Shown piece after piece: positions 16,591-57,763 of a stretch of DNA of 64,000 nucleotides (within the stretch, counting starts at the first letter, position 1; every line of letters begins with the position of its first letter). Source of the stretch: Jaapia argillacea MUCL 33604 (taxonomy: Eukaryota > Basidiomycota > Agaricomycetes > Jaapiales > Jaapiaceae); contig KL197712.1 of the NCBI GenBank assembly GCA_000697665.1, forward strand, positions 1,817,592-1,881,591. The letters run 5' to 3'. Made by a program: the position numbers and the translations under genes. A model generated the notes under the pieces. The model had not been told where the DNA came from. It was given only the letters and a program-made list of their open reading frames with translations, and ran no database searches.

Positions 16591-17020
16591 GATGATGGCG
16601 GTGTGGGTTCAAGGAGAGCAGGAGCACAACAGAACAAGAGAGATACGTAAAGAGATGAAGGAAAAGGTCGTGAGCAGGGGCCGTGCACGTTTGAAGGTGC
16701 TTTTAGTGTTGGAGTCCGCAAAGTTCTGTTGGTCGACACAGTCGTACGACGGGTGAAATTCAATTTCTCCACGGCGAGCGCCCCGCAAAACCCGCCTTAC
16801 GACATGTCACTTGACTCTACCCGGGCACCATGTGATTCCATCGCGACGCCACACGATGGAGAGAGAATTCAAGAAACAAAATAGAGGTGATACGCAGAGC
16901 ACAAAAGCTGTCGACAATATGATAGCAAGGCAAAGCAGGATATTAGAAAAAGAAAGATATTAAGTGGCATTACGCAAAGTATGATCGGAACAGAGGAACC
17001 CCACCACGGCCCTCACCCTT
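16591..17020. other. Intergenic, promoter side of squalene synthase
   Basis: Between the squalene synthase start and the stop of the AlkB-like gene, both on the minus strand. No supported frame. It should carry the squalene synthase promoter and the 3' end of the AlkB-like transcript. Confidence 0.5.
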
Positions 17021-20000: not shown

Positions 20001-21193
20001 ATCTACGTCCCAGTAAACCCCATTTACCGCTTTTGATAGCTCTGGAAAGACGTCAAGAAGCTCTGCCCGAGTCTTTGAGACAGTCAGTGTGGGAGACGAG
20101 AAGGACAGAAGATGAAAACTACCTTTGCCCATATTCGTATTTTCGGGCGAGGCAGAGTTGAAGTCGAAGGTTCAGAACTGAGGTTCTCGACTGTTGGGGG
20201 TGCCGAAGTGGAGGGAGGTGGTTTGACAAGATTCCAATGTGGGAGCGCAGGTCGCGTTGAAGTTGGCTTCGAAACTGGTTGAATGCCCGGTTTTGAGGGG
20301 TCTAGTCACAAATACACAGGAGGAAACTCACGAGTACTCTGATAGAGCTTGAGTTCGACCTCAGTGTCTGTCTTCCGTCGTTTACGTGGTCGTTTCGATG
20401 GATCCGCCTCCTGATCGTCACGGATTTGTAAAGAGGAACTCGATGCTCCCCGCCTCAAGGTTTTCGTAGCCGATTTCTTCGTCTTCTTCTGCAAAACTCC
20501 TGGAATTGGCTCATCCACAGCTGGCACGTTGGGCGACGGTATAACATCGTCGGTGACTTTCGCCTTTCCCTTCCCCCTCTTCCGCTTCAAGGGATCCAAA
20601 TCCGACTTCGACGCAAGCTCCCGAGTTCCCTCCATACCTTCTTCACACACAGCTGTACCTTCTCCAACTCTCAGACCCTCCTCCAATACCTTTTTCCGTG
20701 AGACTCTCGTCTTCTTTGCCGGCTGCACCGAGGGCGTCTCATCTTGAGCTTGCCTCTTCGACTTCCTTTTCGAAGGTGCGGACGCAGAAACAGGAGGAAT
20801 CGTTCCTAGCGAGCCCAAGTCTAACTCTCCGGACGTCATGACTCGCGAAGTAACCTCAGACTCGGAGTCGATCTTGGTCTTCGAACCGGAGGAGCTCGAT
20901 GAACGTTGGGGAGAATGAAAACTTGGCTTCTTGGCTGTTCGGGCCCGCGGGAACATTTCGGTGGGTATTTCGATGCCCTGAGTTGGCTGAACTGCTCCCG
21001 CCTTCGCGTTAGCGCTCCCCAGAGTCCTCTTCTTCGCCACTGTGAAGCGACCAAGACGAGGAGCTGCGGAGGGGTCAGAGCGCAGGTTTTCTTTGGCGAA
21101 ACGGGAGGATGTGATATCGCTAAGGCTAGCAGCACAAAGGTCGAGACATTTCTGGCAGACATTGCGGAGCCTAGAACATGGGCAGTCTGCCAT
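17021..21193 (-). CDS. AlkB-like / 2OG-dioxygenase-type nuclear protein (about 1201 aa)
   Basis: Ten exons (minus): 20332-21193, 20123-20274, 19912-20072, 19230-19843, 18898-19166, 18363-18845, 17896-18289, 17633-17829, 17196-17561, 17021-17128. The N-terminus is Cys-rich (MADCPCSRLRNVCQKC), followed by basic, disordered, nuclear-type sequence (KRKRGKGKAK, RPRKRRKT). Residues about 290-800 follow a pattern I know from a large Agaricomycete family related to AlkB (IWAKTRAELLDVF ... VKWTIRFEW ... PWWLPP). A zinc ribbon (WYCRNCGK ... CDGCK) sits near 825-846. The last 350 residues look like the double-stranded beta-helix part (NGVVVRHVVM, LTHGDLMILGGGDFQ, YSMKRHGMSIC). I cannot find the iron-binding HxD pair, so it may be catalytically dead. 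Copies of its 5' end occur at 610-763 and 29932-30142. The exact last exon is uncertain. Confidence 0.75.
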
Positions 21194-21459
21194 CTTTGAT
21201 CTCGAGAGACAAGAACCAGAAATAAGCCAAGAACAAGCGGATATCAGAGCTCAACACGAGTCTGAAGAAACAGCATTATAATAGCCTCATCGTTTCTGCT
21301 GGAGGTCTTGTGCAAGGAGAGCGACAGACCAACGCAACGTGGTCTATCACGGGTTGTCACATTCTGTCACGTAGCAGGATAGTGTCGAACTTACCGTGAC
21401 ACAACGTGTTCTTCTCTTTAAAACAACAACTTCACATACACTCAACTTCTCAAGGTCTC
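21194..21459. promoter_or_regulatory. Divergent promoter of AlkB-like gene and F-box C1
   Basis: Only 266 bases separate the two starts. The stretch after the AlkB-like start (CAGCATTATAATAGCCTCAT and onward) recurs in front of the fragment at 30142, so the promoter was included in the duplication. AT-rich TTATAAT lies near 21275. A Py-rich leader with TTCACATACACTCAACTTCT precedes the C1 start. Confidence 0.5.
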
Positions 21460-23072
21460 ATGACGGACGTAGGTGAGCGGTTAACCGATTTATTACAACC
21501 CTCCCAAACTCCCATTGACTTGTCTTGCAAGACGCCACAATTCTCGAGTCCTTGCGCTCGAATTTCCTCGTCGTTCCCGAGGTTTTCTTGCATCAGGAGC
21601 TATCGATGGCACAGCAGGAAACCGTTGAGATTGATGTTGAGATTTCAGCGCTTGAGGCACAAATGTGGGCCCTTCAGGAGATGAGAGAGCTCTCCCAGTC
21701 CCGTTGCGCCAACATCGAATCCCTATTCGCCCCCATTCGACGGTTACCTCACGAGGTCCTATCGGGAATATTCGAGCACCTGGTTACCACGGACGCAGGA
21801 GACTCCGACGAGTTTCACTTTATGATCCCGCTCCGCCTCACACATGTCTGTGCTTATTGGAGATCGCTGGCGAATTCGACGCCATCCTTGTGGTCATCGA
21901 TATCTCTACGGCCGACAAATCAACTCCAGCTCCGACAATATGTACCAATATTGGATCATTTCCTCTCTCATTCAGCAGCTCTCCCACTTTCTGCCTCTAT
22001 ATCGCTGTACTGTGTTTCTCAGGGTGGATATCTCCTAGACAAGCTTATGGATCACGCTTTTCGTTGGAAAGATATCCGCATTCAATTGGGATGGGATGAG
22101 GATCTCCTTCAATCCCTCCTTCGAATTCGAGGGGCCAGTTTTCCCCAGCTCAAGGCATTCGAACTACTCTCGGATGAAATTTTCGACCGAGATACCTTCC
22201 TTTTCCTGCGGGACATCACCTGCTTTGAAGACGCACCCATGTTGACTCACGTCACTCTCGGGCATCATTGGTTGCCAGCTGATTTGGCTATGCCCTGGAG
22301 CCAGCTCACTCACTTCGCGTTTGGTAGAAAGGGCGCACTCACACACATTTGGCCGGAGAGTGTCTTCGAATCTCTCCGTAAATGCACCGGGTTGACCCAT
22401 CTCGATATCGTGTGCTTGGAAGTGGGTCACGACTTTGAAGCGGAAGTCTCACCTCAGGATCTCATCGTTCTTCCCAATCTACAATCCTTGCGTCTCCTAA
22501 ACGTCCACCGAGCCGATCTGCTTTTCCAACAGCTCATCTTCCCCAACTTGGCTCATTTAACCTATGAACCATACTACAACTATTCGCTTGAAACATCCTC
22601 ACTTGAAACGTCATTGCCAGCCCTACAAACGTGCATCACGCGATCCCAATGTACCATCACCTCATTCGATTTGAGTCCCGCAGGCGAGCCACCTCAGGTT
22701 CTTGTCGATTGGCTCGATTCCCTTCCATCGCTTCGAGAGGTCACTATCGATGCGGCTGATCTTGACCCGGAATCCCAGGAGGCCATCATCGACTACTTCC
22801 AGCCGGGCGGGAGTTGTATATCACCTAAACCCGAGGATGGCGATTACAAACTACGCCTGTTGGAGCGAATTACCATCAAGGGGTTTCTCAGCTCTCCATT
22901 CGCCGCCAAATATCTCACCTCTGTGATTCGCTTTCGATGTGGTTTCGGTTCGTCGACCGACCTTCCCGTTCGTCTTGTCGTTGCCGCGTTCAACGAAGAC
23001 CTTTGCACTATGTTGGAGACTCGGTTGAAGGATTGCATAGAGGCGGGACTTCACCTCGAAGTCTGTGAATAA
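21460..23072 (+). CDS. F-box protein, type C copy 1 (517 aa)
   Basis: Exon 1 is 21460-21472 (MTDV plus one base), then a 59-nt intron and exon 2, 21532-23072. C3 has the same start and intron, which fixes the model. After a short head (ILESLRSNFLVVPEVF) comes a coiled coil (residues about 25-60), the F-box-like motif (IRRLPHEVLSGIFEHLV ... RLTHVCAYWRSLANS) and leucine-rich strands, ending in the family signature RLKDCIEAGLHLEVCE. The frame is open to the end. Expected to be an SCF substrate receptor. It is divergent to the AlkB-like gene and followed by the broken copy C2 in tandem. Confidence 0.85.
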
Positions 23073-23648
23073 TGGGAGAAACATGTCTAAGAGATGTAGT
23101 GATTTTCGTTGCTATCGGTCGGTTATGGTGCTTCTTGCGTCTGATTCGATTTCTGATCTTTTGAGAGCCCGTTTGTTCACGTACGATCTGTCATCTTCTG
23201 TCCATGTCATCTACTTTCTGTGACAGTTGCTTCAAAAATCCTCCCATTTTGCTCTTCAACTTGCTCACCACCAACCCTCTGAGACTCCATAATACGTGTC
23301 TGTTCTACGTCTATTCTATTACTGACGAAGGGCTCCCAATCAACCAAGGGAACGCCGACGTTTGGTGAGCCTAAACAGTATTTCTTTCGGTGGTGCGTGA
23401 GCTTGGAGCAACATTCTACATAACTGCCACTTCTCGAGCTGCGAGAGATGATAGTCTGCGCAAGAATCAGAGGTCGAGAAACGCGGGCGAACACAAGAAA
23501 TGTGAGTAATGTTACGCATTGCGTGTGACGTCGAGTCACTAGTCGCTCCTGGACCGAGGAAAAGCGACCTTTAGAACGCCAGTCTTGTTAACTTTTCGCG
23601 TCACTCAGCTTGCACTCGGTGTTCATTTGGGCAACCTCTCAAGGTCTT
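23073..23648. other. Intergenic between F-box C1 and C2
   Basis: Holds the C1 3' end and the former C2 promoter. No supported frame. Short T-rich and CT-rich stretches only. Confidence 0.5.
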
Positions 23649-25246
23649 GTGGCAGATATAGGTAAGTTGCATATCCCACGAGCATTCACTGGCGTCCTGC
23701 TGACGTTTCTTGCAGACTCCGTGATTCTCGAGTCTTTGCGCTCGAATATCCTCGTCGTTCCTGAAGTTTTCTTTCACCAGGAGCTGTCAAAAGCACAGAA
23801 AGACCTCTTTGATTTTGAAGCGCAAATCTCAGCGCTTCAGAAGAGGAGAGAGCTTGTCCAGTCCCGTTGCGCCAACATCAAGTCCCTATTCGCACCCATT
23901 CGACGGTTACCTCCCGAGGTCCTATCGGAAATATTCCAGCACCTCGTTATCACGGGCGCCGGAAACTCCAACGATTATCACTTTTTGTTCCCGCTCCGCC
24001 TCACACACATCTGTGGTTATTGGAGATGGCTGACGAAGTTGACGCCATCCTTGTGGTCATCGATATCTCTATACCCAACAAGTCAACTTCAGCTACGACG
24101 ATATCAGGCAATATTAGATCATTTCCTCTCTCATTCAGCCACTCTCCCACTTTCTGCTTCTATAACGCTGCGCAATGTTTCTCAGGGTCGATCCCTCTTG
24201 GATAAGCTTGTGGATCAAGCTCCTCGCTGGAAAGATATTCGCATTCACCTAGGAGACTCTGAGGATCTACGACCCTCCTTCGAATTCGAGAAGCCAGCTT
24301 GACCCAGCTCGAGGCACTCGAATTCCTCTCCGACGAGTCTCTCCGCCCGAATAACTTCCCTTTCCTACGTGACATCACATGCTTCGAAGACACACCCATG
24401 CTGACTCACGTCACTCTCGTGCGTTTCTGGTTTCCGGATAGTTTGCCCATACCTTGGAGCCAGCTTACCCATCTTACGCTCGGTAGTGAGGACGAACCTC
24501 TCTGCGTCCCACCGTATGAGTTCTTTGAAACTCTCCGAAAATGCACCGAGTTGACACACCTGGATATCGTACACGAGAATAATGGTGATGATGATGATGA
24601 CGACGACTATGATGATGGGGAACAAGCCTCACCTCAGGACCATATCGTTCTTCACAACCTGCAATTCCTGCGTCTCCTGGAGGTTCCCAGGGATGATCAG
24701 CTCTTCCTACAGCTAGTCGTCCCCAACTTGGTCAATCTTACTTATGCCCCACCCAACGATTCCCTTGGAACATCCACGCCCACATCTTCATTGCCAGCCC
24801 TACAAAAGTGCATCACACGATCTGGCTGCACCATCACCACATTTGAATTGGGTCCCACGGATACATCTTCGCAGGATGTGTTCGGCTGCCTTGACTCTCT
24901 TCCATCACTTCGAGAGCTCACTATTGATGTGGCCGGGCATTTCCCGAGATTCCAGTCGGCCATCATCGACTACTTCCTGCCAGACGGGAATCGTACATCG
25001 TCCGACTCCGTAGCTAGCGATTACAAGCTACCCATGTTGCAGAGAATTACAATTATGGGACTTAAAGAATGTGAATTCGTCGAATCTCTCGTCTCGATGA
25101 TCCGCTTTCGATGTGGTTTTAGTTCGTCGACCGACCTTCTCGCTCGCCTTGTCGTTGCTGCGTTCGACAAAGACCTGTACGCTGTCTTGGAGACTCGGTT
25201 GAAGGATTGCATAGAGGCGGGACTTCGCCTCGATGTCTGTGGATGA
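23649..25246 (+). pseudogene. F-box protein, type C copy 2, start lost and frameshifted
   Basis: The sequence matches C1 and C3 along its whole length, including the tiny first exon (23649-23661) and the intron (23662-23715). Two lesions are visible. The ATG of C1 and C3 is GTG here (23649-23651). A net loss of 4 bases near 24266-24272, in the codons before the SLLRI region, throws the frame to a stop at 24300-24302. Family sequence then resumes in another frame (24299-25246) to the normal end RLKDCIEAGLRLDVCG. The coiled coil is about seven residues shorter than in C1, and an acidic run of Asp codons (GATGATGATGATGACGACG, near 24586-24610) has expanded. It cannot make the full protein. Confidence 0.85.
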
Positions 25247-25580
25247 TGAGAGAAACATCTCCAAGAGACGGAGGGATTCTCGTTATCGGTAGGGTCATGT
25301 GCCTGTTGCGTCCGATTCGATGCTCATGTGTCTCTGACCCTTTGGGGGCCTTTTTGTCCATGTACTTACTTACAATCTGTCGTAGTGTAACCGGAATCCA
25401 ATCGCAAGCCTTCTCCGTTGTGACAGTTGCGCCATAATCACTCTTGCAACCCCGACCCTTCAGCATACTCAAGTGTGAACCTTTGGACGGTTGCCACCAC
25501 ATCCTCGCCTTGACAAGATTCATCGATGTTCATCATGGCAACAGTGCTTACATGTCATATCGAGCCGGATGTGAACATAG
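25247..25580. other. Convergent intergenic C2/A2
   Basis: Shared 3' region of C2 and A2. It is clearly related to 33071-33397, so it belongs to the duplicated block. No gene seen. Confidence 0.55.
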
Positions 25581-26858
25581 TCAGGCACTATGAGCGAACA
25601 ACTTCCTCAACCCGGCCAGTGCAAACCCATAATCTCCCCTCTGGTCGTCGTCCCCCTCCTTCGAATTCCAGACCCCATCTTCGCCCCAACAACCCCTCCC
25701 ACCCCAAACCCAATCCTCCCACTCCTCCCACGCTTCCTCAAAACTATACAGCCCGTCCCTGTTCCTCACTCTCTCTTCGACGACCTCTTCATCCTCACTC
25801 CCACAAAGGCGAGTATGACTCATCCTCCAAGCCGCCCACATCTCCCTATCGAAACCCCTCACCACAACCCTCCCTTCAACTCCCCCCTTTGCGAAGTCCC
25901 TATCCTCAACAACAAGTCTATCCAACCCCATCTTCATCATATGCCCAGCAGTCCACCCAGCAGTCCACCTCCCATGTTTGGGTACCCGAAGTCTCACTAC
26001 CAATTTCTGGAAAGTTTCGGGGAATGGTTGGAGGAGAGTTTCGCCGATTTGGTTATCCCATGGATGGGCGTGATGAGGGTCTGCGATGGATCGTAAGCCC
26101 AGAGCGACAGCGAAGTGGGAGGGATGGGGAAGGTCCCATTGAGGACCTGAGAGGCATAGGTGGGTGAGGCTGGGTGCGTAGGATGCGGTTTTGTAGAGGT
26201 GGTGGGAGAGGACGCCACCTTCTGGAGTGTTTCGTGATAGGACACCATCTCGATAGGCTAGGTGGACTCGTTTGAGTGTTGGGAAGGGTGTTTGGGGGAG
26301 AAAAGGTATGAGTTGGGAGGGAAGGCGAGTGATTGGGTAGGAGATGGGGGAAGTTAGTTCGTGTAAGTGGGGGAGGGAGGTGGCCAAAGCAGGGAGAGTG
26401 GTGTATGGCGCGAGGAAGATAGTGAGGGAACGAAGGGTCGGGGCGATGAGTGCGAGGACGCGGTTTAGGTGGTGAGTGAGTTCGTTAAAGGTACGAGTCC
26501 ATTCCTCCACGTGTCCGTTGTTCAGCAGCTGCCACGATCTCGTCCTCTGCACCTTCTCCCCATTCGTGTTATAAACCCTAACGAACAAATGTGCCACTCT
26601 CCTCTTCTCGTCTGGGATCCCTTCCAACATCCTCACGAATGCATGAAGCGTTGGAAACGTAGGTTGCGAAATGTCAAATGAAGCGACGAGAGTGGAGAGG
26701 CGGATGGTGGTGGCGATGTCATGGAAGAACTTGGAAGTTAGAGTGAGCGCATTGCAGGTTGGCGGGTGGGTGACGAGGGGTTGGAAGATGAGGATCCAGA
26801 CTTCGGGAGGGATACGGGTGATGGCGAGGGTATCTTTAGTGGATTGGGTATCGTCCAT
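25581..26858 (-). CDS. F-box protein, type A copy 2 (425 aa)
   Basis: Single exon, start MDDTQSTKDTLAITRIPPEV. The F-box-like motif lies at residues about 12-50 and leucine-rich segments fill the middle. Very close to A3. It differs from A1 and A3 by a 12-base tandem duplication that repeats the residues WTAG (near 25945), an in-frame change. The frame is open, so the gene looks usable. A TATA-like element is at 26915-26924 on the minus strand. Paired head to head with B2. Two long plus-strand frames over its 3' half are mirror artefacts of its Pro/Ser-poor, GA-rich coding strand and are not genes. Confidence 0.82.
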   Translation of the reverse strand: MDDTQSTKDTLAITRIPPEVWILIFQPLVTHPPTCNALTLTSKFFHDIATTIRLSTLVASFDISQPTFPTLHAFVRMLEGIPDEKRRVAHLFVRVYNTNGEKVQRTRSWQLLNNGHVEEWTRTFNELTHHLNRVLALIAPTLRSLTIFLAPYTTLPALATSLPHLHELTSPISYPITRLPSQLIPFLPQTPFPTLKRVHLAYRDGVLSRNTPEGGVLSHHLYKTASYAPSLTHLCLSGPQWDLPHPSHFAVALGLRSIADPHHAHPWDNQIGETLLQPFPETFQKLVVRLRVPKHGRWTAGWTAGHMMKMGLDRLVVEDRDFAKGGVEGRVVVRGFDREMWAAWRMSHTRLCGSEDEEVVEERVRNRDGLYSFEEAWEEWEDWVWGGRGCWGEDGVWNSKEGDDDQRGDYGFALAGLRKLFAHSA

Positions 26859-27610
26859 TTTCCAGTGAGAGCTGGAGGGTGAGATGGGTGGAAGTGCTCT
26901 CGAAGTCGAGTAGATTATATATAAATCCTACCCAAGTGGACTTGGCTTCGGCTCCGACAACTTGACAACGGGCGGTGTGCCGGTGGGTTGTGACTCCATT
27001 TCAAGCCTAAAGTTCGTTGTTACGTTCGATGGAAGATGAGTGGGAGACTCGGAGAGCCCGGCGTTCGCTATAGCTTGGGCTAATATGCTCGTTTATCGAC
27101 CCGACGGTCCCGATCACACAGCTTCACCGAGAGGATGAATTCCTGGACTGACGTACGGAACCGAACGGGTTTCCAGAAAGGTCAGTTGGACGCAGATTTG
27201 GTTCAGAGTACTAGTATCCAGGTTGACATCGCTGAGCTGTCCAAGCGCTCGAGTCTGAAGCAGAAGATGAGAACAGGTTCAAAACAGGTTACTATTTTCG
27301 TCTTACATCTCCACTTGAAGGCCACAATCTTACAACAGCTTCTCCAGCCTCAGGGCCACTGCATCGTCCAACAGTAGTTGCTGTCAGGATCTGGTGTGTA
27401 TGTTTTTGAGGGTTGCATCATTAGCCAGAAACGCTGAACTTCAAATTTCATTTTCGTCATCCTGTCGCTTTTCGTGGGTTGTTCAAAAGTCCTGCCATCG
27501 CTTCGACTCTCTACTCGACACATCGATCGTTCCTCTGTGTCGAACCCAGCGACCAACGGACTACCCTATTTGAATCCTGATAACGATATACACATCGGTT
27601 GAGAGTCAAG
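26859..27610. promoter_or_regulatory. Shared divergent promoter of F-box A2 and B2
   Basis: Strongly similar to 34664-35399 over its full length, and in parts to 2978-3839. TATA-like element for A2 at 26915-26924. Just before the B2 start is a conserved stretch (GAATCCTGATAACGAT and CGGTTGAGAGTCAAG). Inside it lies an 80-codon plus-strand frame (27135-27377) that is kept in the third block despite 6- and 12-base length differences; see the findings. Confidence 0.6.
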
Positions 27611-29222
27611 ATGGACATCGGTAAATCCCTCCATCCCCCGCGTTATCCAGTTTTTTCTTGACTTTTTTGCGAAAGACTTGGACCTTTGGGAGGCCCTACG
27701 TTCGAATCAAACTTCCATGTCCGGCGTGAACTTGCACGCGGAACTGTATAAGGCTTGGGAGGAGTTTGATGAGGCTGAAGTTGAGCTTCGGAAGTTGCGT
27801 AGGCGGATCAGTGCTCTTGAGGAGAAGAGGGATTTCACACAGTCACGATGCACCAATATCATATCGCTATTGGCCCCCATCCGACGTCTTCCTCCCGAGA
27901 TTATCTCCAAGATCTTCGCGCACACACTGGGCCCAGGTCTTGTGGATCCGTTAAAGCATCCCCTCCCCGTCCTCCTGACCCATGTGTGTTCTTACTGGAG
28001 ACATATTGCTTTGTCGACCCCGACCCTTTGGTCGTCATTGTCCGTAGAACCTAGGTACGACCACAACAGTGCGCAAACCAAGCAGATCTTGGACGAGTTC
28101 CTTGCACGGTCTGGGACTGCCCCTCTCTCGATTTTCATCCACTTGCGACATTTTGAGGGCGGAGATCCACTGGGTACCCTTGTAGAACATGCACATCGAT
28201 GGAAGTCCCTTTCTATCTTCCTAGATGGATCCCATCTCCGACTAGATCCTCTTCGAATCGAGGATGTTCGATTGGCTCAACTCGAGCAAGTCCACCTCGA
28301 AAAGTACAGAGAATATCAGTCCGACCCTCCGTTCTTACAAGAGATCACAGTCTTTCAAACAGCTCCGAACCTCACCAGCGTCACCCTCGCAGAATTGTGG
28401 CGTCCGAATATCTCACCTCTGCCCTGGAGCCAACTTACCCACCTCGCTCTCGGAGACGCAGACAGTTTTACTGTCCTTTCTATTGCCGATCTTTTTGACA
28501 TCTTGCCACGATGTAGTCAATTGACACACTTTACCTTTGCCTCCCTCTGTGGAGACAATGACGAACCAGGTCGCCACCCTGGGATGCCGAATCTCATCGA
28601 GTTACCCAAACTTCGGTCTCTAATCCTTCGACGTACTCGTGGAGTCGGGTACTTCTTACGGCAGCTCAGAGTCCCGGATTTGAACAAGTTCATATACCAG
28701 GCCCCCTTTGGCTCCTCGACCCCGCGTTGTGATCTTGCGTTCACGACGTTGGGCCTCCAGTCTTGCCTTCAAAAATCTCGCTGTGTCATCACGACACTAG
28801 AATTCACCCCTGTATCTGCCACACTCGATGACGTGCTTCGATTCCTTTACTCTCTACCGTCGATTCGGAATGTTCACCTCCACCTTGGTGCACAATCTTC
28901 TGAGCACGACTTGCACATCATCCGATATCTCTCAGGTCCGGATTCTATTCCGTCGGATCGGACATCCGGATCTCAAAAACCCCTGATGTTGGAGAGCATC
29001 ACGATCACCGACCTGCACGATTCTCTCCCTATAGTCGAAGCTCTCGTCTCCATGATTCGGTTCCGATGTGGTTTGCCCTCCGAGTCCTCAGACTCGTTCG
29101 TGGGTGCTACACCACCAACGACAAGGCTTGTCTTCGCTTCATTTGATAAGCGACTCTCCACTACGCTAGTGCCTCGATTGGAGGTGTGTGTCGCAACGGG
29201 CCTTCGTCTCGATTTCCATTAG
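27611..29222 (+). CDS. F-box protein, type B copy 2 (518 aa)
   Basis: Exon 1 is 27611-27620 (MDI plus one base), the intron 27621-27675, exon 2 27676-29222. Coiled coil at residues about 20-65 (AELYKAWEEFDEAEVELRKL). F-box-like motif (IRRLPPEIISKIFAHTLG ... LLTHVCSYWRHIALS). Leucine-rich C-terminal part closing with CVATGLRLDFH. Open throughout. Compared with B1 and B3 the coiled coil and F-box are almost unchanged, while the region between about residues 90 and 210 varies most, as expected if that part contacts a changing target. Head-to-head partner of A2; the phosphotransferase relic follows on the other strand. Confidence 0.85.
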
Positions 29223-29477
29223 TCAAAAGGACCCTCACTTACGCCTCTCTAAATCTGTACATTCCTTGTACTGTTTGTCTTCCTCGAGCTTCGTTTCCAC
29301 ACCGTGTATATGAATACTTACGCTACGACCTCGTTTCACCATTCTGGCTTGTAAATGCGTCTACGATTGTATAGTGAATATCTGCGTTTTTCCCATCGGA
29401 AACGCGGGTAGAACGAGGTCAACCATCGACGGAGTAACTAAACCCTCGCGCTTTCGCTCCCATTTCCAATAGCAACA

Positions 29478-29931
29478 TGGCTTCCGAATAACCCCCGACC
29501 TCTCCAAAATTACAACACCTTCAACGCCTCCCTCTCGACTCCTAAACCCCCAAATCAACAACCATCCCATCTCTTTCCTCTCGACTATAACTACGAAATC
29601 GGGCACGACGGCTTTGATATCTTTGACAAATAGTTCTTTGAGGAGTTTACCGTCGTCACCGAGAAGTTCGAGGAGGTCAAGGTGAGAGGGGAAATGTGAG
29701 GGTGTATGTAGGCGTGGGTGTGGGTGTGATGGAACGCCTGGCCGGAGTGGGCAGGTGTGTGGAGGGAGTGGGGTAAGGGTTGAAATGGGCGTTCAAGGAG
29801 GGTGGATTGAGTGGGGGGTGGGCGATGACGGTGATGGTGATTGGTACGGATCGGGTTCGTCCCAATCGCATTCCAATTCCATAAAAAGACGGGGTCAGAA
29901 TAGGCTGTCGGTGCAGGAAGGACATAGGATC
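29478..29931 (-). pseudogene. 3' fragment of the phosphotransferase gene (tandem-duplication scar)
   Basis: Copy of the last about 160 codons of the gene at 37267-38691. It starts at the APMAYSYPDFLWNW segment and includes the His/Pro-rich stretch and the MGWLLIWGFRSRE end. It has frame breaks and lacks the HGD and DWD kinase motifs. Its upstream edge near 29931 is fused directly to AlkB-like 5' sequence. A 190-codon frame across the fusion (29677-30249) is out of register with both parents and is not a chimeric gene. Confidence 0.85.
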
Positions 29932-30142
29932 GGCTGAACTACTCTGCCTCCCCATTAGCGTTCTCCGGAGTCCTCTTCTTTGCCACTGTGACGCGGCCAA
30001 GACCAGTGGTTGCAGAGGGGCCTGAGAGCAGGTTTTCTTCGGCGAAACGCGAGGAGGTGATCTCGCTAACGCCAGCGGCGTAAAGGGCGAGACATTGCTG
30101 AGAGACATTACTACGGAGTATAGAACACGGGCAGTCTCCCAT
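29932..30142 (-). pseudogene. 5' fragment of the AlkB-like gene (tandem-duplication scar)
   Basis: Encodes a degraded version of the first about 67 residues of the AlkB-like protein (MGDCPCSILRSN ... CLALYAAGVSEITSSRFAEENL ... TVAKKRTPENA), then stops at the fusion with the phosphotransferase remnant. Promoter-side sequence matching that of the intact gene continues to about 30240. It could make a 67-residue Cys-containing peptide if transcribed, but there is no sign that this is selected. Confidence 0.85.
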
Positions 30143-30343
30143 CCCTGACCTCGAGACGCAAGAACCAGAGATAATGAGCGGATATCAGCACGAGTCTGCC
30201 GAGAGAACATTATAATAACCTCATGGTTTATGCTGGAGGTTTTACGCAAGGCTTAGGGAAACACCAGACCGACCGGAGACTAAAGTCGCTGAACACGGTC
30301 TGTGACGAACCGTCACAACCTGTCACAGGGTTCCTCTGAGTCT

Positions 30344-31385
30344 CACTGCAGACGGGTGAGGATAAACCCTCCTGGCATATTGTTGACATAGCCATCCAAA
30401 TTTGATGAAGATATACATGCCTGTGGCGCGTGAACGCAGCCAATTGTACTTATAGTTTACTTATACCGATGAGTATTCCCGTGTGCCTCAGCCACATGGC
30501 GGAATCTTAACTATGTTTCAAAATATACCACTTGCCTGTGTCGAAAGGACGTATTATAAAAATAACCCTAAGGATATGGCCCAAGGACCAAGCCATGCAG
30601 TATTTTTTGAATATGTCAGTGTGCTACTGATCTCCCCTCGGCTCGCTAATGGTCCTGCTACTTGCACGGTACGGATATATTCAAAAAATACTGCATGGCT
30701 TGGTCCCTGGGCCATATCCTTAGGGTTATTTTTATAATATATCCTTTCGACACAGGCAAGTGGTATATTTTGAGATATNNNNNNNNNNNNNNNNNNNNNN
30801 NNNNNNNNNNNNNNNNNNNNNNNNNNNNNNNNNNNNNNNNNNNNNNNNNNNNNNNNNNNNNNNNNNNNNNNNNNNNNNNNNNNNNNNNNNNNNNNNNNNN
30901 NNNNNNNNNNNNNNNNNNNNNNNNNNNNNNNNNNNNNNNNNNNNNNNNNNNNNNNNNNNNNNNNNNNNNNNNNNNNNNNNNNNNNNNNNNNNNNNNNNNN
31001 NNNNNNNNNNNNNNNNNNNNNNNNNNNNNNNNNNNNNNNNNNNNNNNNNNNNNNNNNNNNNNNNNNNNNNNNNNNNNNNNNNNNNNNNNNNNNNNNNNNN
31101 NNNNNNNNNNNGATATATTCAAAAAATACTGCATGGCTTGGTCCCTGGGCCATATCCTTAGGGTTATTTTTATAATATATCCTTTCGACACAGGCAAGTG
31201 GTATATTTTGAGATATGGTTTAAATTCCGCCATGTGGCTGAGGCACGCCGGAATACTCATCGGTATAAGTAAACTATAGGTACAATTGGCTGCGTTCACG
31301 CGCCACAGGCATGTATATCTTCATCAAATTTGGATGGCTATGTCAACAATATGCCAGGGGGGTTTATCCTCACCCGCCTGCAGTG
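30344..31385. mobile_element. CACTA-like non-autonomous element with long inverted arms
   Basis: The ends are CACTGCAG (30344-30351) and CTGCAGTG (31378-31385), flanked by TCT at 30341-30343 and 31386-31388, a 3-bp target duplication typical of CACTA (EnSpm/CMC) elements. Inward of the ends the two arms are reverse complements over about 270 bases (30344-30614 and 31115-31385), with few mismatches. There is no transposase frame, so it would need enzyme from elsewhere. The central spacer is about 60 bases. The N run inside is probably spurious (see the gap entry); without it the element would be about 604 bp. It sits between the copied AlkB-like promoter and C3. Assignment to CACTA rests only on the end sequence and the 3-bp duplication. 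Confidence 0.7.
30779..31111. other. Assembly gap (333 N), probably two overlapping contig ends
   Basis: The 105 bases before the gap (30674-30778) are identical to the 105 bases after it (31112-31216). This suggests that two contigs overlapping inside the hairpin-forming element were not merged. Frames drawn across the N run are meaningless. Confidence 0.85.
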
Positions 31386-31450
31386 TCTCCACCTCTTCCT
31401 CTCTTCAAGCGCTTCAAAAAGGACCTTATACTCAAACATTTCAACGTCTC

Positions 31451-33070
31451 ATGACGGACGTAGGTAAGTACTGGACCGTTATTAAAAGCAATCTAGCCTC
31501 CCATTGACTTATCTTGCAAGACGCTGCAATTCTCGAGTCTTTGCGCTCGAATATCTTCGTCGTTCCCGAAGTTTACTTGCAACAGGAGCTATCGAGAGCG
31601 CAGCAGGACGTCATTGAACTTGATGTTGAAATTTCAGCACTTTTGACACAGATCCGTGTCCTTAAGAAGAGGAGAGAGCTCTCCGAGTCCCGTTGCGCCA
31701 ACATCAAGTCCCTATTCGTACCCATTCGACGGTTACCCCCCGAGGTCCTATCGGAAATATTCGAGCATCTCGTTATTACGGGCGCCGGTAACTCCAACGA
31801 TTATCACTTTTTGATCCCGCTCCGCCTCACACACATCTGTGGTTATTGGAGATGGCTGGCGAAGTCGATGCCATCCTTGTGGCCATCGATATCTCTATGT
31901 CCAACAAATCAACTCCAGCTACGACGATATCAGGCAACATTGGATCATTTCCTCTCTCATTCAGCCACTCTCCCCCTCTCCGCCTCTATAACGTTATCCA
32001 GTGTTTTCCGGGGTCAATTCCTCTTGGATAAGCTTGTGGATCACACTTTTCGCTGGAAAGATATTCGCATTCACTTGGGAGGGGATGAGGATCCACTTCG
32101 ATCCCTCCTTCGAATTGGAGGGGCCAGCTTGACCCAGCTCAAGACATTCGAATTCCTCTCGGATGAAAATTTCGACCCAGATACCTTCCCTTTCCTGCGT
32201 GACATCACATGCTTTGGAGACGCACCTGTGTTGACTCACGTCACTCTCGGGCTCAATTGGTTTCCTGCTGATCTGGCTATGCCTTGGAGCCAGCTCACTC
32301 ACCTTGTGCTTGGTAGGGAGGGCGCACCTACATACCTTTGGCCAGAGGGTGTATTCGAAACTCTCCGGGAATGTACCGAGTTGACACATCTTGATATCGT
32401 ATTCTCGGATCAGGGCCTCGACTATGATCAGGAACAAGTCTCGCACGAGGACCGTATCGTTCTTCACAATCTACAATCGCTACGCCTCCTGGGTGTCCCC
32501 AGAGATGATCTACTTTTCCAACAGCTCATCGCACCCAACTTGGCTCATTTTACTTATAAAGCATACTCCCACTATTCACTCGAAACATCCATGTTTGTAT
32601 CTTCATTGCCATCCCTACAAACTTGCATCGCACGATCCCAATGCACCATCACTTCATTCGATTTGACTCCCACGGACGCACCAGCGCAGGATATTCTCGA
32701 CTGGCTTGACTGCCTTCCATGCCTTCGAGAGGTCACCATCGATGTATCCAGGTGTCTCCCGCAATTCCAGGAGGCCATCGTCGACTACTTCCTACCAATC
32801 GAGGTCGGCCTATCGTTTAAGCCCGAGCATGTCTATTACACACTACCCATGTTGGAGAGGATTACCCTCAAGGGCCCTGTCGAGTTTCCATTGGTCGCCG
32901 AATATCTCTTCGCCATGATCCAATTCCGATGTGGCTTCAGTTTGTTGACCGACCTTCCCTCTCGCCTTGTCGTTGCGACGTTCAACGGCGACCTTTGCAC
33001 TGTCTTGTCAACGGACACTCGGTTGAAGGATTGTATAGAGGCGGGATTTCACCTCAATGTCGGTGAATGA
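31451..33070 (+). CDS. F-box protein, type C copy 3 (520 aa)
   Basis: Exon 1 is 31451-31463 (MTDV plus one base), the intron 31464-31520, exon 2 31521-33070. Coiled coil (residues about 25-65), F-box-like motif (IRRLPPEVLSEIFEHLV ... RLTHICGYWRWLAKS), leucine-rich strands, and a slightly altered end (RLKDCIEAGFHLNVGE). Intact frame. The F-box region resembles C2 (VITGAGNSNDYHF), while the start and the second half resemble C1 (NYSLET/HYSLET region, LAMPWSQLTH), so it looks like a mosaic. Its promoter has been interrupted by the CACTA-like element ending 66 bases upstream. Confidence 0.84.
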
Positions 33071-33397
33071 CGGGAGAAACATATCTTAAAGATAGACCGA
33101 TTCTCGTTGTATCGGTAGGGTCATGTGCTTGTTGCATCCGATTCAATGCGCATGTGTCTCTGACACTTTGAGCGCCTTTTTGTCCATGTACTTACGATTT
33201 GTAGCCGGAATCCAATCAGAAGGATGGTCCCATTATACAGTATCAATGACATCACAATCACTCTCGTGAACTCTTCAACATACTTGAACGCGAACGTTTG
33301 AACGGTTGCAATTCACAAATCCTCACTTTACAAGATTCATCAATGTTCATCACGGAAACAGGGCTTACTTGTCATATCGAGCCGGATGTGAACATAG
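33071..33397. other. Convergent intergenic C3/A3
   Basis: Counterpart of 25247-25580 in the left copy, with long identical runs near the A3 stop (CATATCGAGCCGGATGTG). No gene seen. Confidence 0.55.
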
Positions 33398-34663
33398 TCA
33401 GGCACTATGAGCGAACAACTTCCTCAACCCATCCAATGCAAAACCATAATCTCCCCTCTCGTCCTCGTCCCCCTCTTTCGAATTCCAGACCCCATCTTCG
33501 CCCCAACAACCCCTCCCACCCCAAACCCTATCCTCCCACTCCTCCCTCGCTTCCTCAAAACTATACGGCCCGTCCCTGTTCCTCACTCTCTCTTCGACCA
33601 CCTCTTCATCCTCACTCCCACAAAGGCGAGTATGACTCATCCTCCAAGCCGCCCACATCTCCCTATCGAAATCTCTCACCACAACCCTTCCTTCAACTCC
33701 CCCCTTTGAAAGGTCTCTATCCTCAACAACAAGTCTATCCAACCACATCTTCATCATATGCCCAGCAGTCCACCTCCCATGTTTGGGTAACCGAAGTCTC
33801 ATTACCAATTTCTGGAAAGTTTCGGGGAATGGTTGGAGGAGCGGTTCGCCGATTTGGTTCTCCCATGGATGGGCGTGATGAGGGTCTGCGATGGATCGTA
33901 AGCCCAGAGCGACAGCGAAGTGGGAGGGATGGGGAAGGTCCCATTGAGGACCTGAGAGGCATAGGTGTGTGAGGTTGGGTGCGTAGAATGCGATTTTGTA
34001 GAGGTGGTGGGAGAGGACGCCACCTTCCGGCGTGTTTCGTGATAGCACACTATCTCGATAGGCTAGATGGACTCGTTTGAGGGTTGGGAAAGGGGTTTGG
34101 GGGAGAAGAGGTATGACTTGGGAGGGAAGACGAGTGATTGGGTAGGAGACGAAGAAGGTGAGTTCGTGTAGGTGAGGGAGGGAGGTGGTCAAAGCAGGGA
34201 GAGTGGTGTATGGCGCGAGGAAGATAGTGAGGGAACGAAGGGTTGGCGCGATGAGTGCGAGGACGCGATTTAGATGGTGAGTGAGTTCGTTAAAGGTATG
34301 AGTCCATTCCTCAACGTGACTGTTGTTCAGCAGCTGCCATGATCTCGCCCTCTGCGCCTTCTCCCTATTGGTGTTATAAACCCTGACGAACAAATGCGCC
34401 ACTCTCCTCTTCTCGTCTGGTATCCCTTCCAACATCCTCACAAACGCATGGAGCGTTGGAAACGTAAGTTGCGATATGTCAAATGAAGCGACGAGAGTGG
34501 AGAGGCGGATGGTGGTGGCGATGTCATGGAAGAACTTGGAAGTTAGGGTGAGTGCATTGCAGGTTGGTGGGTGGGTGACGAGGGGTTGGAAGATGAGGAT
34601 CCAGACTTCGGGAGGGATACGCGTGATGGCGAGGGTATCGTTGGTGGATTGGGTATCGTCCAT
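33398..34663 (-). CDS. F-box protein, type A copy 3 (421 aa)
   Basis: Single exon with the same start (MDDTQSTNDTLAITRIPPEV) and F-box-like motif as A2. It lacks the 12-base duplication of A2. Differences from A2 are scattered single residues. Intact frame. TATA-like sequence near 34719-34727 on the minus strand, about 56-64 bases before the ATG, as in A1 and A2. Head-to-head with B3. Presumed SCF substrate receptor; no other domain recognised. Confidence 0.82.
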   Translation of the reverse strand: MDDTQSTNDTLAITRIPPEVWILIFQPLVTHPPTCNALTLTSKFFHDIATTIRLSTLVASFDISQLTFPTLHAFVRMLEGIPDEKRRVAHLFVRVYNTNREKAQRARSWQLLNNSHVEEWTHTFNELTHHLNRVLALIAPTLRSLTIFLAPYTTLPALTTSLPHLHELTFFVSYPITRLPSQVIPLLPQTPFPTLKRVHLAYRDSVLSRNTPEGGVLSHHLYKIAFYAPNLTHLCLSGPQWDLPHPSHFAVALGLRSIADPHHAHPWENQIGEPLLQPFPETFQKLVMRLRLPKHGRWTAGHMMKMWLDRLVVEDRDLSKGGVEGRVVVRDFDREMWAAWRMSHTRLCGSEDEEVVEERVRNRDGPYSFEEAREEWEDRVWGGRGCWGEDGVWNSKEGDEDERGDYGFALDGLRKLFAHSA

Positions 34664-35399
34664 TTTCCAGTGAGAGCTGGAGGGTGAGATGGTTTGAAGT
34701 GCTCTCGAAGCCGAGTAGATTATATACTAATCCTACCCGACTCAGTGGACTTGGGTGAGGATGTTACTTCGGCTCCGACGAGTTGACAACGGGCAGTGTG
34801 CCGGAGGGTTGTGACTCCATTTCGAAAGCCTAAAAGTTCGTTGCTATGTTCGATGGAAGATGAGTGGGAGACTCGGAGAGCATGGCGTTCGCTACAGCTT
34901 GAGGCTATGCTCGTTTGTCAACCGGACAACACAGCTTCACCGAGAGGAAGAATTCCTGGACTGACATAAGAGACCGAGCGGGTTTCCAGGAAGGACAGTT
35001 GGACGCAGATGTGGTTCAGAGTGTCCAGGTTGACATCGCTGAGCTGTCCAAGCGCTCGAGTCTAAAGCGGAAAACCAGAACGGGTTCAAAACAGGTTACT
35101 ATTTTCGTCTTACACCCAACAGTCTTACAACAGCGTCTCCAGCCTCAGGGCCACTACATCGTCCAACAGTAGTTGCCGTCAGGATCTGGTGTGTGTGCGA
35201 TTTGAGGGTTACATCGTTAGCCAGAAACGTTGACCTTCAAATTTCATTTTCGTCGTCCCGTCGCTTTTCGTTCAAAAGTCCTGCCATCGCTTCGACTCTC
35301 TACTCGACACATCGATCGTTCCTCTGTGTCGAACCTGGCGACCAAAGAACTACCTTATTTGAATCCTGATAACGATCTACACCTCGGTTGAGAGTCAAT
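34664..35399. promoter_or_regulatory. Shared divergent promoter of F-box A3 and B3
   Basis: Aligns with 26859-27610 along its whole length. It carries the TATA-like element for A3 (near 34719-34727) and the conserved GAATCCTGATAACGAT block before B3. It also holds the second copy of the short plus-strand frame (34915-35172). Confidence 0.6.
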
Positions 35400-37016
35400 A
35401 TGGACATCGGTAAGCACCTCCATCTCCCGCGTTATCTAATTTTTTCTTGACTCTTTGCCAAAGATTCGGACCTTTGGGAGGCTCTACGTTCGAATCAAAC
35501 TTCCATCTCCGGCGTGAACTTGCACGCAGAGCTGTATAAGGCTTGGGAGGAGTTTGATGAGGCGGAAGTTGAGCTTCGGAAGTTGCGTAGGCGGGTCAGT
35601 GCTCTCGAGGAGAAGAGGGATCTCACACAGTCACGATGCACCAATATCATATCGCTATTGGCCCCCATCCGACGTCTACCTCCCGAGATTATCTCCAAGA
35701 TCTTCGTGCACACAGTGGGCCCAGATTTTATAAATCCCTTAAAATATCAGCTCCCGGTCCTCCTCACCCACGTATGTTCCTACTGGAGGCAGATTGCATT
35801 GTCTACGTCGACCCTTTGGGCGTCTTTACTCATAGCCCCTCGTGACGGCGGGGAAATAGCACGGATGAGGCCGATCTTGGACTGCTTCCTCGCACGCTCT
35901 GGGACTGTCCCTCTCTCGACTCACGTCGACTTGCGGCTTCTTGGTGGCGGAGATCTGGTGGATCGTCTCTCACAATACGCTCATCGATGGAATCTCTTTT
36001 CTATCTTCTTGGGTGACAGTTTGGACCCCCTCCGGCCCCTTCGTCAAATCCGAGATGGTGCGTTGACTCAACTCAAGGAAGTCCGCCTCATCCGAGACAG
36101 TGGACTTCAGCCCCGTGTCCCCTTCCTACAAGAGATTACGGCATTCCAAACAGCTCCGAACCTCACCAAGGTCACACTCGAACTCAGTTGGGGACCAAAT
36201 ATCTTAGCTCTACCCTGGAGCCAACTTACCCACCTCGCTCTCGGAGACACAGAGAATCTTACTGTCATTTCAACTGCCGATCTTTTTGACATCTTGCCAC
36301 GATGCAGTCAATTGACACACTTTAGCTTTGCCTCCCCCTGTGGAGACAATGACGAACCAGGTCGCCGCCCTGAGATGCTGAATCTCATCGAGTTACCCAA
36401 ACTTCGGTCCCTAACCCTTCGACATGCTCGTGGAGTCGGGTACTTCTTACAGCAGCTCAGAGTCCCGGACTTGAACAAGTTCATATACCAGTCCCCCTTC
36501 CAATCCCCGACCCAACATTGCGATCTTGCGTTCACAACGTCGGGCCTCCAGTCTTGCCTTCGACGATCTCACTGTGTCATCGTGACACTGGAATTCACCC
36601 CTGTATGCGCCGCACTCGAAGACGTGCTCCGGTTCCTTCACTGCCTACCGTCGATTCGGAATCTTCACCTCGACCTTGGTACACAATCTGCTGATTACGA
36701 CTTGGACATCATCCGATATCTCTCAGGTCCGAATTTTGTTCCTTCGGATCAGACACCCGGAACTCAAAACCACCGGATGTTGGAGAGCATCACGATCACC
36801 GACCTGAACGATTATCCCTATGTAGTCGAAGCTCTCGTCTCCATGATTCGGTTCCGATGTGGCTTGCCCTCCGAGTCCTCAGACTCGTTCACGCGTGCTT
36901 CACCGCCGGCGGCAAGGCTTGTCTTCGCTTCATTCGGTAGACAACTCTCTGCTACACTTTTGCCTCGATTGGAGGAGTGTGTCTCAGCGGGCCTTCGTCT
37001 CGATTTCCATGGGTAA
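35400..37016 (+). CDS. F-box protein, type B copy 3 (520 aa)
   Basis: Exon 1 is 35400-35409 (MDI plus one base), the intron 35410-35463, exon 2 35464-37016. Same plan as B2: coiled coil, F-box-like motif (IRRLPPEIISKIFVHTVG ... LLTHVCSYWRQIALS), leucine-rich part, end CVSAGLRLDFHG. Intact. The ATG at 35514 inside exon 2 would miss the conserved head, so the spliced start is preferred. Shares with B2 the downstream region leading to the phosphotransferase 3' end, 250 bases away on the opposite strand. Confidence 0.85.
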
Positions 37017-37266
37017 CCAAAGACGCTCAGTTACGCCTTCCAAATCTGTACGTTTCCCCAGACTGCTTGTCTTCCTCGAGCTTTGTTTCCCTACCGTGTA
37101 TAAGAATACTTACGCTACGATCATCTTTCACCATTCTGGCTTGACTGTGTCTACGATTGTACATTGAATATGTGTGTTTATCCATCGTAAACACGGATAG
37201 AATAGAAACACCCAGTGACGAAGAACCTAAGCCCTCGTACTCTCACTTCCGTTTCCAGCACCAATA

Positions 37267-38691
37267 TCACTTCCCAATAACCCCCAACCTTTCTAAAATC
37301 GCATCGCCCTCGTCCCCTTCCTCCCGACTCCTAAACCCCCAAATCAACAACCATCCCATCTCTTTCAAATCCATACTCTCTTTCCTCTCTACGATATCCA
37401 CGAAATCGGGTACGACGGCCTTGATCTCTTTAACAAATAGTTCTTTGAGGAGTTTACCTTCGTCGCCGAGAGGTTCGAGGAGATTGAGGTGAGAACGGGA
37501 ATGAGAGGGCGTGTGGAGGTGTAAATGGAGGTGTGAGTGTGATGGTGTACCCGGGCGGGAGTGGAGATGTGAGTGCGGTGAGCCAGGACGGGAGTAGGCA
37601 GGTGTGTGGAGGGAGTGGGAGTAAGGATTGAAATGGGCGCGCGAGGAGTGGGCGGAGAGAGTGTGGTGGTGATGGTGGTGGTGATGGTACGGATCGGGTT
37701 CGTTCCAATCGCTATCCCAATTCCATAAAAAGTCGGGGTAGGAATAGGCCATAGGTGCGGGTAGAGCACAGGATCCGTCCCAATCGAGTAAACCCGACAC
37801 TTTCCATGAAAGCGATTCCCCGTCAGACGACCGAGAGACGAGGATGTTCTGAGGAGAGAAGTCTCCGTGGTAGAGAGTGATTTGAGGAGAAAGTGTTTGG
37901 AGTTTAGGGAGGAGTTTATCTCGGAACGTAGAGGCGAACTTGTCGAGATTGGGGTATGTATACGTCTCGTCGTTCGCTGTTTGTAGTATGTGTGCGACTT
38001 GGATATCGAGGAATGAGGAGATGTCGATAGCCACAGGTGTCGGAGAACTCCCGGGCTTGCTATCGTCGACGAGAACATGGAATGGCCCCACAGAGAGCCC
38101 ACTCGAAGGATCCTTCTTCGTCTTCGCGTTCAAATACCCTATACTCTCGAAAGTAATGCCACACAACTGCCCCATCAACTTTACCACCTCTTTCACAATC
38201 TCTGACTTCTCTTCGAAGGTCATCGAAGGGTATACGTCGCACAGCGGTTCCCCAGGTAACATCCGCTGAATGACATATGGATCGCCGAGAGGGTTATCGG
38301 AAGTAAGATCGAGCTTCAATACCGAAGGGACTGGTATCTTGGAATGCGACTCGAGGAAAGATATCACAGCTGCCTCGTCGTCGGCTTCTCTCCCGAGTTC
38401 ACTAAACTCGGGACGCGGCACGCGAATTACGATGTGGTCTCCACGTTCGGATTCGGATGAAGAGGTATTACCAGAGTCAGACAGTGAAGCTCCGATGACT
38501 CGATGGTAAGACCCTCCGTTGATATGCCAGATAGGTGTCGATTCAGAGCATTGATTAGGAAAGAGAGCGACGAGGAGCGAGCGGACTTTATCGACATAAG
38601 AGTCGAAAGGTTCGTGATTGTAGATGATGGTAGATGCATCCGATCCTGCGTGTGCTCCGCCGGATGATGGAGGACTTGAGTTTGTCGACAT
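37267..38691 (-). CDS. APH/choline-kinase-like phosphotransferase (474 aa)
   Basis: Single exon. The fold is that of aminoglycoside-phosphotransferase/choline-kinase proteins: an N-lobe with IVIRVPRP and an ALKLDL-like strand (VPSVLKLDL), the segment GDPYVIQRMLPGEPL, the Brenner catalytic loop YHGDFSPQNIL (H about 270, Asp and Asn present) and the metal-binding SGLLDWDGS. Mushrooms have many such genes and the substrates are usually unknown. After the kinase core there is an unusual insert of about 80 residues rich in His, Ser and Pro, with eight consecutive His near residue 335, then a helical tail (LLKELFVKEIKAVVPDF). Its last third was copied twice elsewhere (764-1110 and 29478-29931). All catalytic motifs are intact. 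Confidence 0.88.
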   Translation of the reverse strand: MSTNSSPPSSGGAHAGSDASTIIYNHEPFDSYVDKVRSLLVALFPNQCSESTPIWHINGGSYHRVIGASLSDSGNTSSSESERGDHIVIRVPRPEFSELGREADDEAAVISFLESHSKIPVPSVLKLDLTSDNPLGDPYVIQRMLPGEPLCDVYPSMTFEEKSEIVKEVVKLMGQLCGITFESIGYLNAKTKKDPSSGLSVGPFHVLVDDSKPGSSPTPVAIDISSFLDIQVAHILQTANDETYTYPNLDKFASTFRDKLLPKLQTLSPQITLYHGDFSPQNILVSRSSDGESLSWKVSGLLDWDGSCALPAPMAYSYPDFLWNWDSDWNEPDPYHHHHHHHHTLSAHSSRAHFNPYSHSLHTPAYSRPGSPHSHLHSRPGTPSHSHLHLHLHTPSHSRSHLNLLEPLGDEGKLLKELFVKEIKAVVPDFVDIVERKESMDLKEMGWLLIWGFRSREEGDEGDAILERLGVIGK

Positions 38692-39118
38692 CGCGAGCGG
38701 GCAGCAGGACGAGGGCGGAGGGGGAAGAACACGTCGGCTGCATTGTTCAATTTAGAGATTGGCAGAGAACAGACCTGGATCATGGCTTTTCAAATATTGT
38801 ACAGCCACTGATGCGCTGATGGACGGTCCTGCCCTTGCGAATGCAACACCCTCCTACATACCATACCATGCCGTTTCCTCAAATCCATCTCCCTGTCAAT
38901 AGCACAACGGTTCACAATCAACAAGCGCTCGGGATTAAAAAATTGTACGTTCGCTATGCGTATTGACCACAGCCAAAAGCATCTTTGAGCCACCCGCGAC
39001 ACCATCGTCTGCGCTTTTTCCATTGCTCAAAGCCAGGTAGCATGGATCCAGTGGCCAACCTCGTGTTCGTCTCCTTAAACATGCCACGTCCTCGTCCACA
39101 TCCCTGCTTCATACCACC
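38692..39118. promoter_or_regulatory. Divergent promoter region, phosphotransferase / zinc-finger gene
   Basis: 427 bases between two divergent starts. No supported frame. No clear TATA element; the region is mixed in composition with short CT-rich leader stretches near both starts. Confidence 0.4.
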
Positions 39119-57662: not shown

Positions 57663-57763
57663 GGCGGTAGGGGTGGAGGGAGCAGGTTCGGAACCATGTC
57701 CCCAGGAGGAGGGGTGGTGAGAGGATGAGGACTGGAGGTGGAGGATGACGCCGAGGGGTCCAT

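Follow-up and report, generated by a model that had tools for sequence, protein, structure and literature searches.

A block of F-box-like genes in the basidiomycete Jaapia argillacea MUCL 33604, lying in a 64,000-nucleotide stretch of DNA (the window; bases 1817592-1881591 of contig C4, GenBank KL197712.1, which has 1,898,765 bases in a genome of 43.7 Mb and 95 contigs), consists of two tandem units whose gene order and chimeric scar are accounted for by a tandem duplication. We strongly favour a history in which this one duplication took place inside a large F-box cluster and was accompanied by gene conversion between the units, formation of an inverted copy, gain or loss of a gene of the type here called C, and insertion of a foldback element. 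The geometry of the block, its joint and a homogeneous divergence at four stretches of the unit are established; the other steps that reshaped it are inferred. All coordinates are window positions, negative values lying to the left of window base 1.

Two tandem units and their joint

Self-blastn of the window returns three direct matches between the units: 20985-21317 with 29932-30251 (77.7% identity), 21437-23150 with 31427-33147 (80.3% identity), and 23701-29931 with 31505-37775 (82.5% identity). The block and the genes that bound it are laid out as follows:

20985..29931, plus strand: left tandem unit (unit 2), with part of the first exon of the left-flank gene and its promoter, C1, C2, A2, B2 and the 3' tail of the APH gene
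29932..37775, plus strand: right tandem unit (unit 3), with the 5' part of the left-flank gene and its promoter, the foldback element, C3, A3, B3 and the APH 3' tail
29931..29932, no strand: novel joint (the scar), placed by base-level alignment, its parental breakpoints without visible homology
29440..30251, minus strand: chimeric pseudogene, joining the 5' part of the left-flank gene and the APH 3' tail on one strand
17000..21192, minus strand: left-flank gene, multi-exon and intact, with its ATG near 21192 and an approximate 3' end at ~17000
37267..38751, minus strand: intact APH-domain phosphotransferase gene (PF01636, 49.3 bits), 494 codons

In the base-level alignment the joint 29931|29932 unites the two outer points, the APH equivalent of 37775, which falls within the APH gene, running directly into the left-gene equivalent of 20985, a position in exon 1 of the left-flank gene. 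A reading made earlier from the sequence alone (the sequence-only reading) had put the join at about 29,931 and the outer points at 37,775 and 20,985, and these positions prove exact to the base; its proposal that the segment between the outer points had been duplicated in tandem is likewise supported by two collinear copies in the same orientation, by a scar that joins the outer breakpoints, and by outer flanks that are single-copy and intact. The similarity it expected to run unbroken between the copies is direct and collinear but not strictly continuous, being interrupted by the foldback element with its assembly gap (30344-31385) and by the additional C gene that the left unit carries. Both interruptions look secondary; minus the element and the extra C gene, the units measure ~6.76 and ~6.80 kb by arithmetic. 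Aligned piecewise, in three pieces, they are 85.0% identical over 6618 columns, a count from which 21376-21436 and 23151-25321 of the left unit and 30344-31426 of the right unit are absent. Global alignment in a single register was misleading, in that it forced C1 onto the element and C2 onto C3, and the piecewise alignment was used instead.

In controls for chance, none of 200 random 333-bp windows taken outside the repeated blocks had a non-self match at E<1e-5, and the 333-bp left-gene piece matched none of 50 mononucleotide shuffles of the window at E<1e-3. On the minus strand the scar opens with the left gene's first codons and runs into a TAG just before the join, with frame breaks beyond it. 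A working fusion protein is ruled out by this TAG and these frame breaks; the scar is a dead relic of two joined gene ends.

Divergence between the units and exchange of segments

The A and B genes of the two units are open frames, for which bit scores refer to the F-box-like family PF12937 with its Pfam gathering score of 24.3:

25581..26927, minus strand: A2, 448 codons, F-box-like at 17.1 bits, below the cut-off
27603..29222, plus strand: B2, 539 codons, F-box-like at 23.0 bits, below the cut-off
33398..34726, minus strand: A3, 442 codons, F-box-like at 17.2 bits, below the cut-off
35451..37016, plus strand: B3, 521 codons, PF12937 at 25.1 bits

Four stretches across the unit, namely the left-gene piece with the promoter (57 differences in 317), the C-A stretch (61/336), the B 3' region (69/332) and the APH tail (88/474), show 18-21% divergence between left and right and are homogeneous (chi-square p=0.78). 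Two of them are the halves of the scar, whose intact partners are coding there (in the left-gene piece only partly); the other two lie between genes. The A-B interval, a stretch that takes in the edges of both the A and the B frames, is half as diverged (76/804, 9.5%), and divergence is no longer uniform across the unit, as a single event would have it, once this interval is included (p=2.6e-7). Expressed as Jukes-Cantor (JC) distance, the interval stands at 0.10 vs 0.21-0.24 in the other stretches; synonymous divergence (Ks) is 0.15 for A2-A3, 0.26 for B2-B3 and 0.37 for C1-C3. From the homogeneous divergence at the ends and flanks and the lower divergence in the middle, it looks as though the ends and flanks of the unit fit one date and the middle was homogenised later.

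Significant mosaic patterns between copies, as interlocus gene conversion produces them, are present. When unit 3 is compared with unit 2 and with the inverted block described below, the best break by max-chi-square falls near 35727 (0/2000 permutations). Binned by 25 informative sites, unit 3 mostly resembles unit 2 within 33316-35720 and 36200-37000, one bin near 34108 being even, and tends towards the inverted block at ~35771-36150 and from ~37160. The test is a single-break one, additional switches being taken from the bins; it also gives 0/2000 permutations for B3 with two pairs of parents, and it detects breaks in all three C genes (see below).

The inverted block and the age of the fusion

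The left end of the window holds a third block, overlooked in the sequence-only reading, that carries a fusion like that of the scar:

470..5142, minus strand: third, inverted block, with A, B, the APH tail and the left-gene 5' piece (self-blastn and alignment)
3777..5105, plus strand: A frame of the inverted block, F-box-like at 15.8 bits
1368..3035, minus strand: B frame of the inverted block, F-box-like at 27.4 bits
761-470: left-gene 5' piece of the inverted block, in the same kind of fusion to the APH tail as at the scar

The inverted block appears to have split at about the depth of the tandem duplication, exchange blurring the order. In trees with standard bootstrap (A2,A3) is recovered at 68 and, over the whole of B, (B2,B3) at 98. 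With ultrafast bootstrap, in which support below 95 is commonly regarded as weak, B2 joins B3 in codons 300-400 (96) and 400-520 (81) of B, the inverted block joins B3 in codons 120-300 (78), and codons 0-120 are unresolved (40), leaning the same way as 120-300. The left-gene piece and A-B interval sets have three sequences and no outgroup, so that branch order there comes from distances alone.

Several points weigh against the history that we favour. Coding sequence is present among the four homogeneous stretches, two of which, the B 3' region and the APH tail, overlap by ~120 bp; A is coding, and its low divergence is partly constraint. The distances do not place the inverted block consistently: by JC distance it lies 0.32 from unit 2 and 0.34 from unit 3 in the A-B interval, 0.28 from both the scar and the intact gene in the left-gene piece (against 0.21 between scar and intact gene), 0.17 from the intact gene and 0.27 from the scar in the APH tail, and 0.21 from unit 3 and 0.27 from unit 2 in the B 3' region. 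In the first two of these stretches it is farther from units 2 and 3 than these are from each other, while the B middle, the B 3' region and the APH tail all bring it closer to unit 3 than to unit 2. The intact APH gene is constrained, which shortens its distances. Several of the tree supports are weak (40, 68, 78, 81), the reshaping steps are undated, and their order is resolved only in part.

These same data bear on a variant in timing, possible but in our judgement doubtful, in which the fusion predates the present units: an earlier array would already have had at least two units with scars, the inverted block would be its relic, and units 2 and 3 would look young through re-duplication or homogenisation. 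Such a course is favoured by the position of the fusion-bearing inverted block outside (A2,A3), outside (B2,B3) over all of B and again in B codons 300-400 and 400-520, and by the greater distance of its left-gene piece than that between scar and intact gene; it is opposed by B codons 0-120 and 120-300 and by the B 3' region and APH tail, which bring the inverted block nearer unit 3, and the differences among such short pieces are near sampling error. More speculatively still, the scar may be an inherited mark of an F-box array, older and larger than the present one, that shed an inverted A-B-scar block and whose remaining units still trade segments. As part of that same speculation, the B middle, which changes fast, and the C genes might be re-assorted all the time into new adaptor variants while A and its surroundings stay uniform. 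Left of window base 1 there is a gap of 5,209 N, which ends exactly at the window start and separates the inverted block from a further C gene (~-6.8 kb).

The C genes

The two units differ in their number of C genes:

21519..23069, plus strand: C1, open frame of 517 codons, F-box PF12937 at 35.8 bits
23592..25246, plus strand: C2, a mosaic whose break lies near 24249, with the frame interrupted near 24263-24302
31508..33070, plus strand: C3, open frame of 520 codons, F-box-like at 17.8 bits, below the cut-off

C1 and C2 follow each other in the left unit with a period of ~2.2 kb. They are 75.1% identical, compared with 80.2% for C1-C3 and 78.6% for C2-C3; between C2 and a C copy at -8.7 to -6.8 kb the figure is 81.8%. 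A recent C1-C2 duplication within unit 2 was considered as a simple account and is a misfit, C1 and C2 being less alike than C1 and C3. For the same reason the parent with a single C (C-A-B), which the sequence-only reading had proposed, is not established, and the mosaic structure of C2 likewise fails to bear it out.

C2 switches partner near 24249, being C3-like 96 to 43 before this point and 96 to 193 after it (0/2000 permutations, as also with C1 and a copy at -66 kb as parents). Its 5' half is C1/C3-like and its 3' half is akin to C copies outside the block, and the trees agree: the 5' half puts C1, C2 and C3 together (94, ultrafast bootstrap), and the 3' half sets C1 and C3 apart from C2 and the outside copies (100), with C2 joined to the -8.7 kb copy at 86. 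The frame break of C2 adjoins this mosaic join. C3 is C1-like upstream, leans to C2 over ~31660-32040, is mostly C1-like in its body and C2-like downstream, with a mosaic break near 33095 (10/2000 permutations); C1 is mosaic too, with a break near 22720 (4/2000). The pattern would fit a parent with two C genes and loss of one in unit 3, or a parent with one C gene and a unit-2 C overwritten from outside.

The founding event and other accounts of the joint

Over 201 bp around each of the two breakpoints, a single 9-bp match is shared, which lies off the join, and at the join itself not one base is common to both; at this divergence, old microhomology of 1-3 bp may once have been present. Unequal homologous crossing-over calls for homology between the breakpoints, and because none is seen the founding event does not look like such an exchange. 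The earlier proposal of an unequal recombination as the founding step is thus not upheld in its homologous form, and end joining or template switching is likelier.

On the history that we favour, a ~6.8-kb segment (~8.9 kb for a parent with two C genes), reaching from within the first exon of the left-flank gene to within the APH gene, would have been duplicated in direct tandem by the joining of two non-homologous ends in an event of replication or end-joining type. The outer flanks would have stayed single and intact, the joint would have been left as a dead scar of APH tail and left-gene head, and each copy would have retained complete F-box genes together with the sequence on either side of them. 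Gene conversion between the units would have covered the A-B interval together with A and parts of B; the block now at 470-5142 would have formed as an inverted copy of A-B-scar, judged by its divergence at roughly the same depth as the duplication; recombination among C genes would have given the mosaic C2, with a C gained in unit 2 or lost in unit 3; and the foldback element would have been inserted recently upstream of C3.

The stricter claim of the sequence-only reading, that one unequal recombination of a single C-A-B block explains everything, with point mutation alone since, is improbable. A single tandem duplication does fit the geometry and exact joint, the gene order, the scar and the four homogeneous stretches, and that part of the claim stands; it fails on the half-diverged A-B interval, on the mosaic structure of unit 3 and the other mosaic copies, on the lesser likeness of C1 to C2 than to C3, on the inverted block with its like fusion, on the element insertion and on the breakpoints without homology.

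That the fusion in the inverted block arose independently of the scar at 29931 is very unlikely. The joint itself is gone there, the equivalent of ~29813-29966 (~150 bp, containing the join) being absent but for a few bases, which leaves room for a separate origin; yet the ends of that fusion lie within ~120 bp and 36 bp of those of the other joint, and two events so close in multi-kilobase targets would be improbable without a hot spot (an argument, not a computed figure). Because both ends fall close to the other joint, a common origin of the two fusions followed by deletion would be the simplest account. An assembly artefact or collapsed haplotypes can be virtually discounted in spite of a doubtful gap ~850 bp from the joint, and assembly error is ruled out as the source of the fusion, because the scar halves are 18-19% diverged from their intact partners and a like fusion recurs on the opposite strand.

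The foldback element and its assembly gap

30344..31385, no strand: foldback element with CACTG...CAGTG ends and TCT on both sides, upstream of C3
30779-31111: assembly gap of 333 N inside the foldback element

A relative of the element on contig C3 (973002-973602), with CGT on both sides, is 99.3% identical to 30343-30778 (436 bp) and 96% identical to 31112-31408. Since 105 bp of this relative match both flanks of the 333-N gap, the gap is probably false, in which case the true element would be ~604 bp long and ~438 letters too many would be present. The element arm has at least 21 matches in the genome (arms counted singly), one copy being 99.3% identical, and by this near identity to another genome copy the insertion is evidently much younger than the tandem duplication.

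CACTA-type foldback elements have CACTG/CACTA termini and a 3-bp target duplication. Both features are found in two copies, flanked by TCT and CGT, and we take the element to be a foldback, CACTA-like non-autonomous DNA transposon (candidate). Like transposons of that class it has CACTG...CAGTG ends, 3-bp flanking direct repeats and long inverted arms; no transposase is seen in it, and its placement in the CACTA superfamily is putative.

The F-box family and comparison with known systems

The C and B genes encode F-box-like proteins of ~520-540 codons with Pfam scores on either side of the cut-off: C1, B3 and the inverted B reach it, as does a frame at 9481-10641 (30.5 bits), and C3, B2, the first half of C2 (18.2 bits), A2, A3 and the inverted A stay below. 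By family membership the F-box genes are probably SCF ubiquitin-ligase adaptors. Searches of the genome with the B3 and C3 proteins found at least 84 and at least 82 matching stretches, which are not gene counts (83 of 157 and 83 of 139 candidates were scored). Members near the block span -66387 to 42338 (~109 kb of one contig), with a further fragment near 77.7 kb. The A genes (25581-26927, 33398-34726, 3777-5105) are the most constrained, with a ratio of nonsynonymous to synonymous divergence (Ka/Ks) of 0.22-0.29 vs 0.47-0.67 for B; an A relative, 52% identical, lies on contig C25. A fourth B with an APH tail is found on contig C3 (1871178-1873370) and has the inverted B as its nearest relative; the genome search gave no match to the left-gene 5' piece at that locus. 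The F-box genes here probably evolve by birth and death with exchange.

The locus belongs to a known kind, in which a clustered gene family grows through tandem duplication accompanied by gene conversion (PMC3924818). Like direct tandem segmental duplications with a chimeric joint, it has two collinear copies, single flanks and a joint of the outer breakpoints; unlike a plain duplication of that sort, its copies are blurred by conversion, C gain or loss and element insertion, and a like joint stands in the inverted block. Interlocus gene conversion between duplicated genes is reviewed in PMC3924818, and the low-divergence tracts between the tandem copies, bounded by older-looking stretches, resemble it; conversion here is read from one genome, with tract ends and direction blurred. 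F-box birth-and-death expansion (PMC3030570, plants; PMC3984280, primates and relatives) yields families that are, like this one, large, clustered and fast-changing, with some members broken; the present family differs in belonging to a fungal genome, its members near the block being strung along one contig. Passages in PMC4469406 deal with F-box domain counts in a smut fungus, in PMC8893723 with ubiquitination genes among conserved developmental genes, and in PMC3602538 with a cold-shock gene. By titles and the beginnings of abstracts, no tandem-duplication scar in a fungal F-box cluster was found among the open-access matches listed, and the literature on chimeric duplication joints yielded general papers only. 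The locus shows at base resolution one way in which a clustered F-box family expands, by tandem duplication with non-homologous ends that spares the flanks, together with conversion and dispersal, and the scar and its inverted relative are markers by which sister genomes could order the steps. The process is an ordinary one, and the general picture of gene-family evolution is unchanged.

Elsewhere in the window, 9041-10666, which contains the 30.5-bit frame, and 40744-42352, whose frames are broken and match C3 and B3, are 71% alike in direct orientation. A further direct tandem pair lies at 52788-58177; its two copies are 80% alike over 2.4 kb, and beyond the window, at ~75.2-77.3 kb, there is an inverted relative.

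The flanking genes

The left-flank gene had been labelled AlkB-like. For its open frames no relevant Pfam match and no AlkB/2OG-Fe(II) dioxygenase domain was found, and a hand-spliced part of 209 residues (the splice being guessed) has no relevant match in Pfam, NCBIfam or PDB sequences, so that the label finds no support in the parts scanned. Matches in the genome to the 5' part of this gene are its own locus and the two scar pieces only. The identification of the right-flank gene as a phosphotransferase is confirmed by its APH domain, which scores well above the PF01636 gathering cut-off of 23.2, and the gene has 7 genome matches, namely itself and 6 tail fragments. Adjoining the left-flank gene is a squalene/phytoene synthase exon (15140-15823, minus strand; PF00494, 89.4 bits), a possible synteny anchor.

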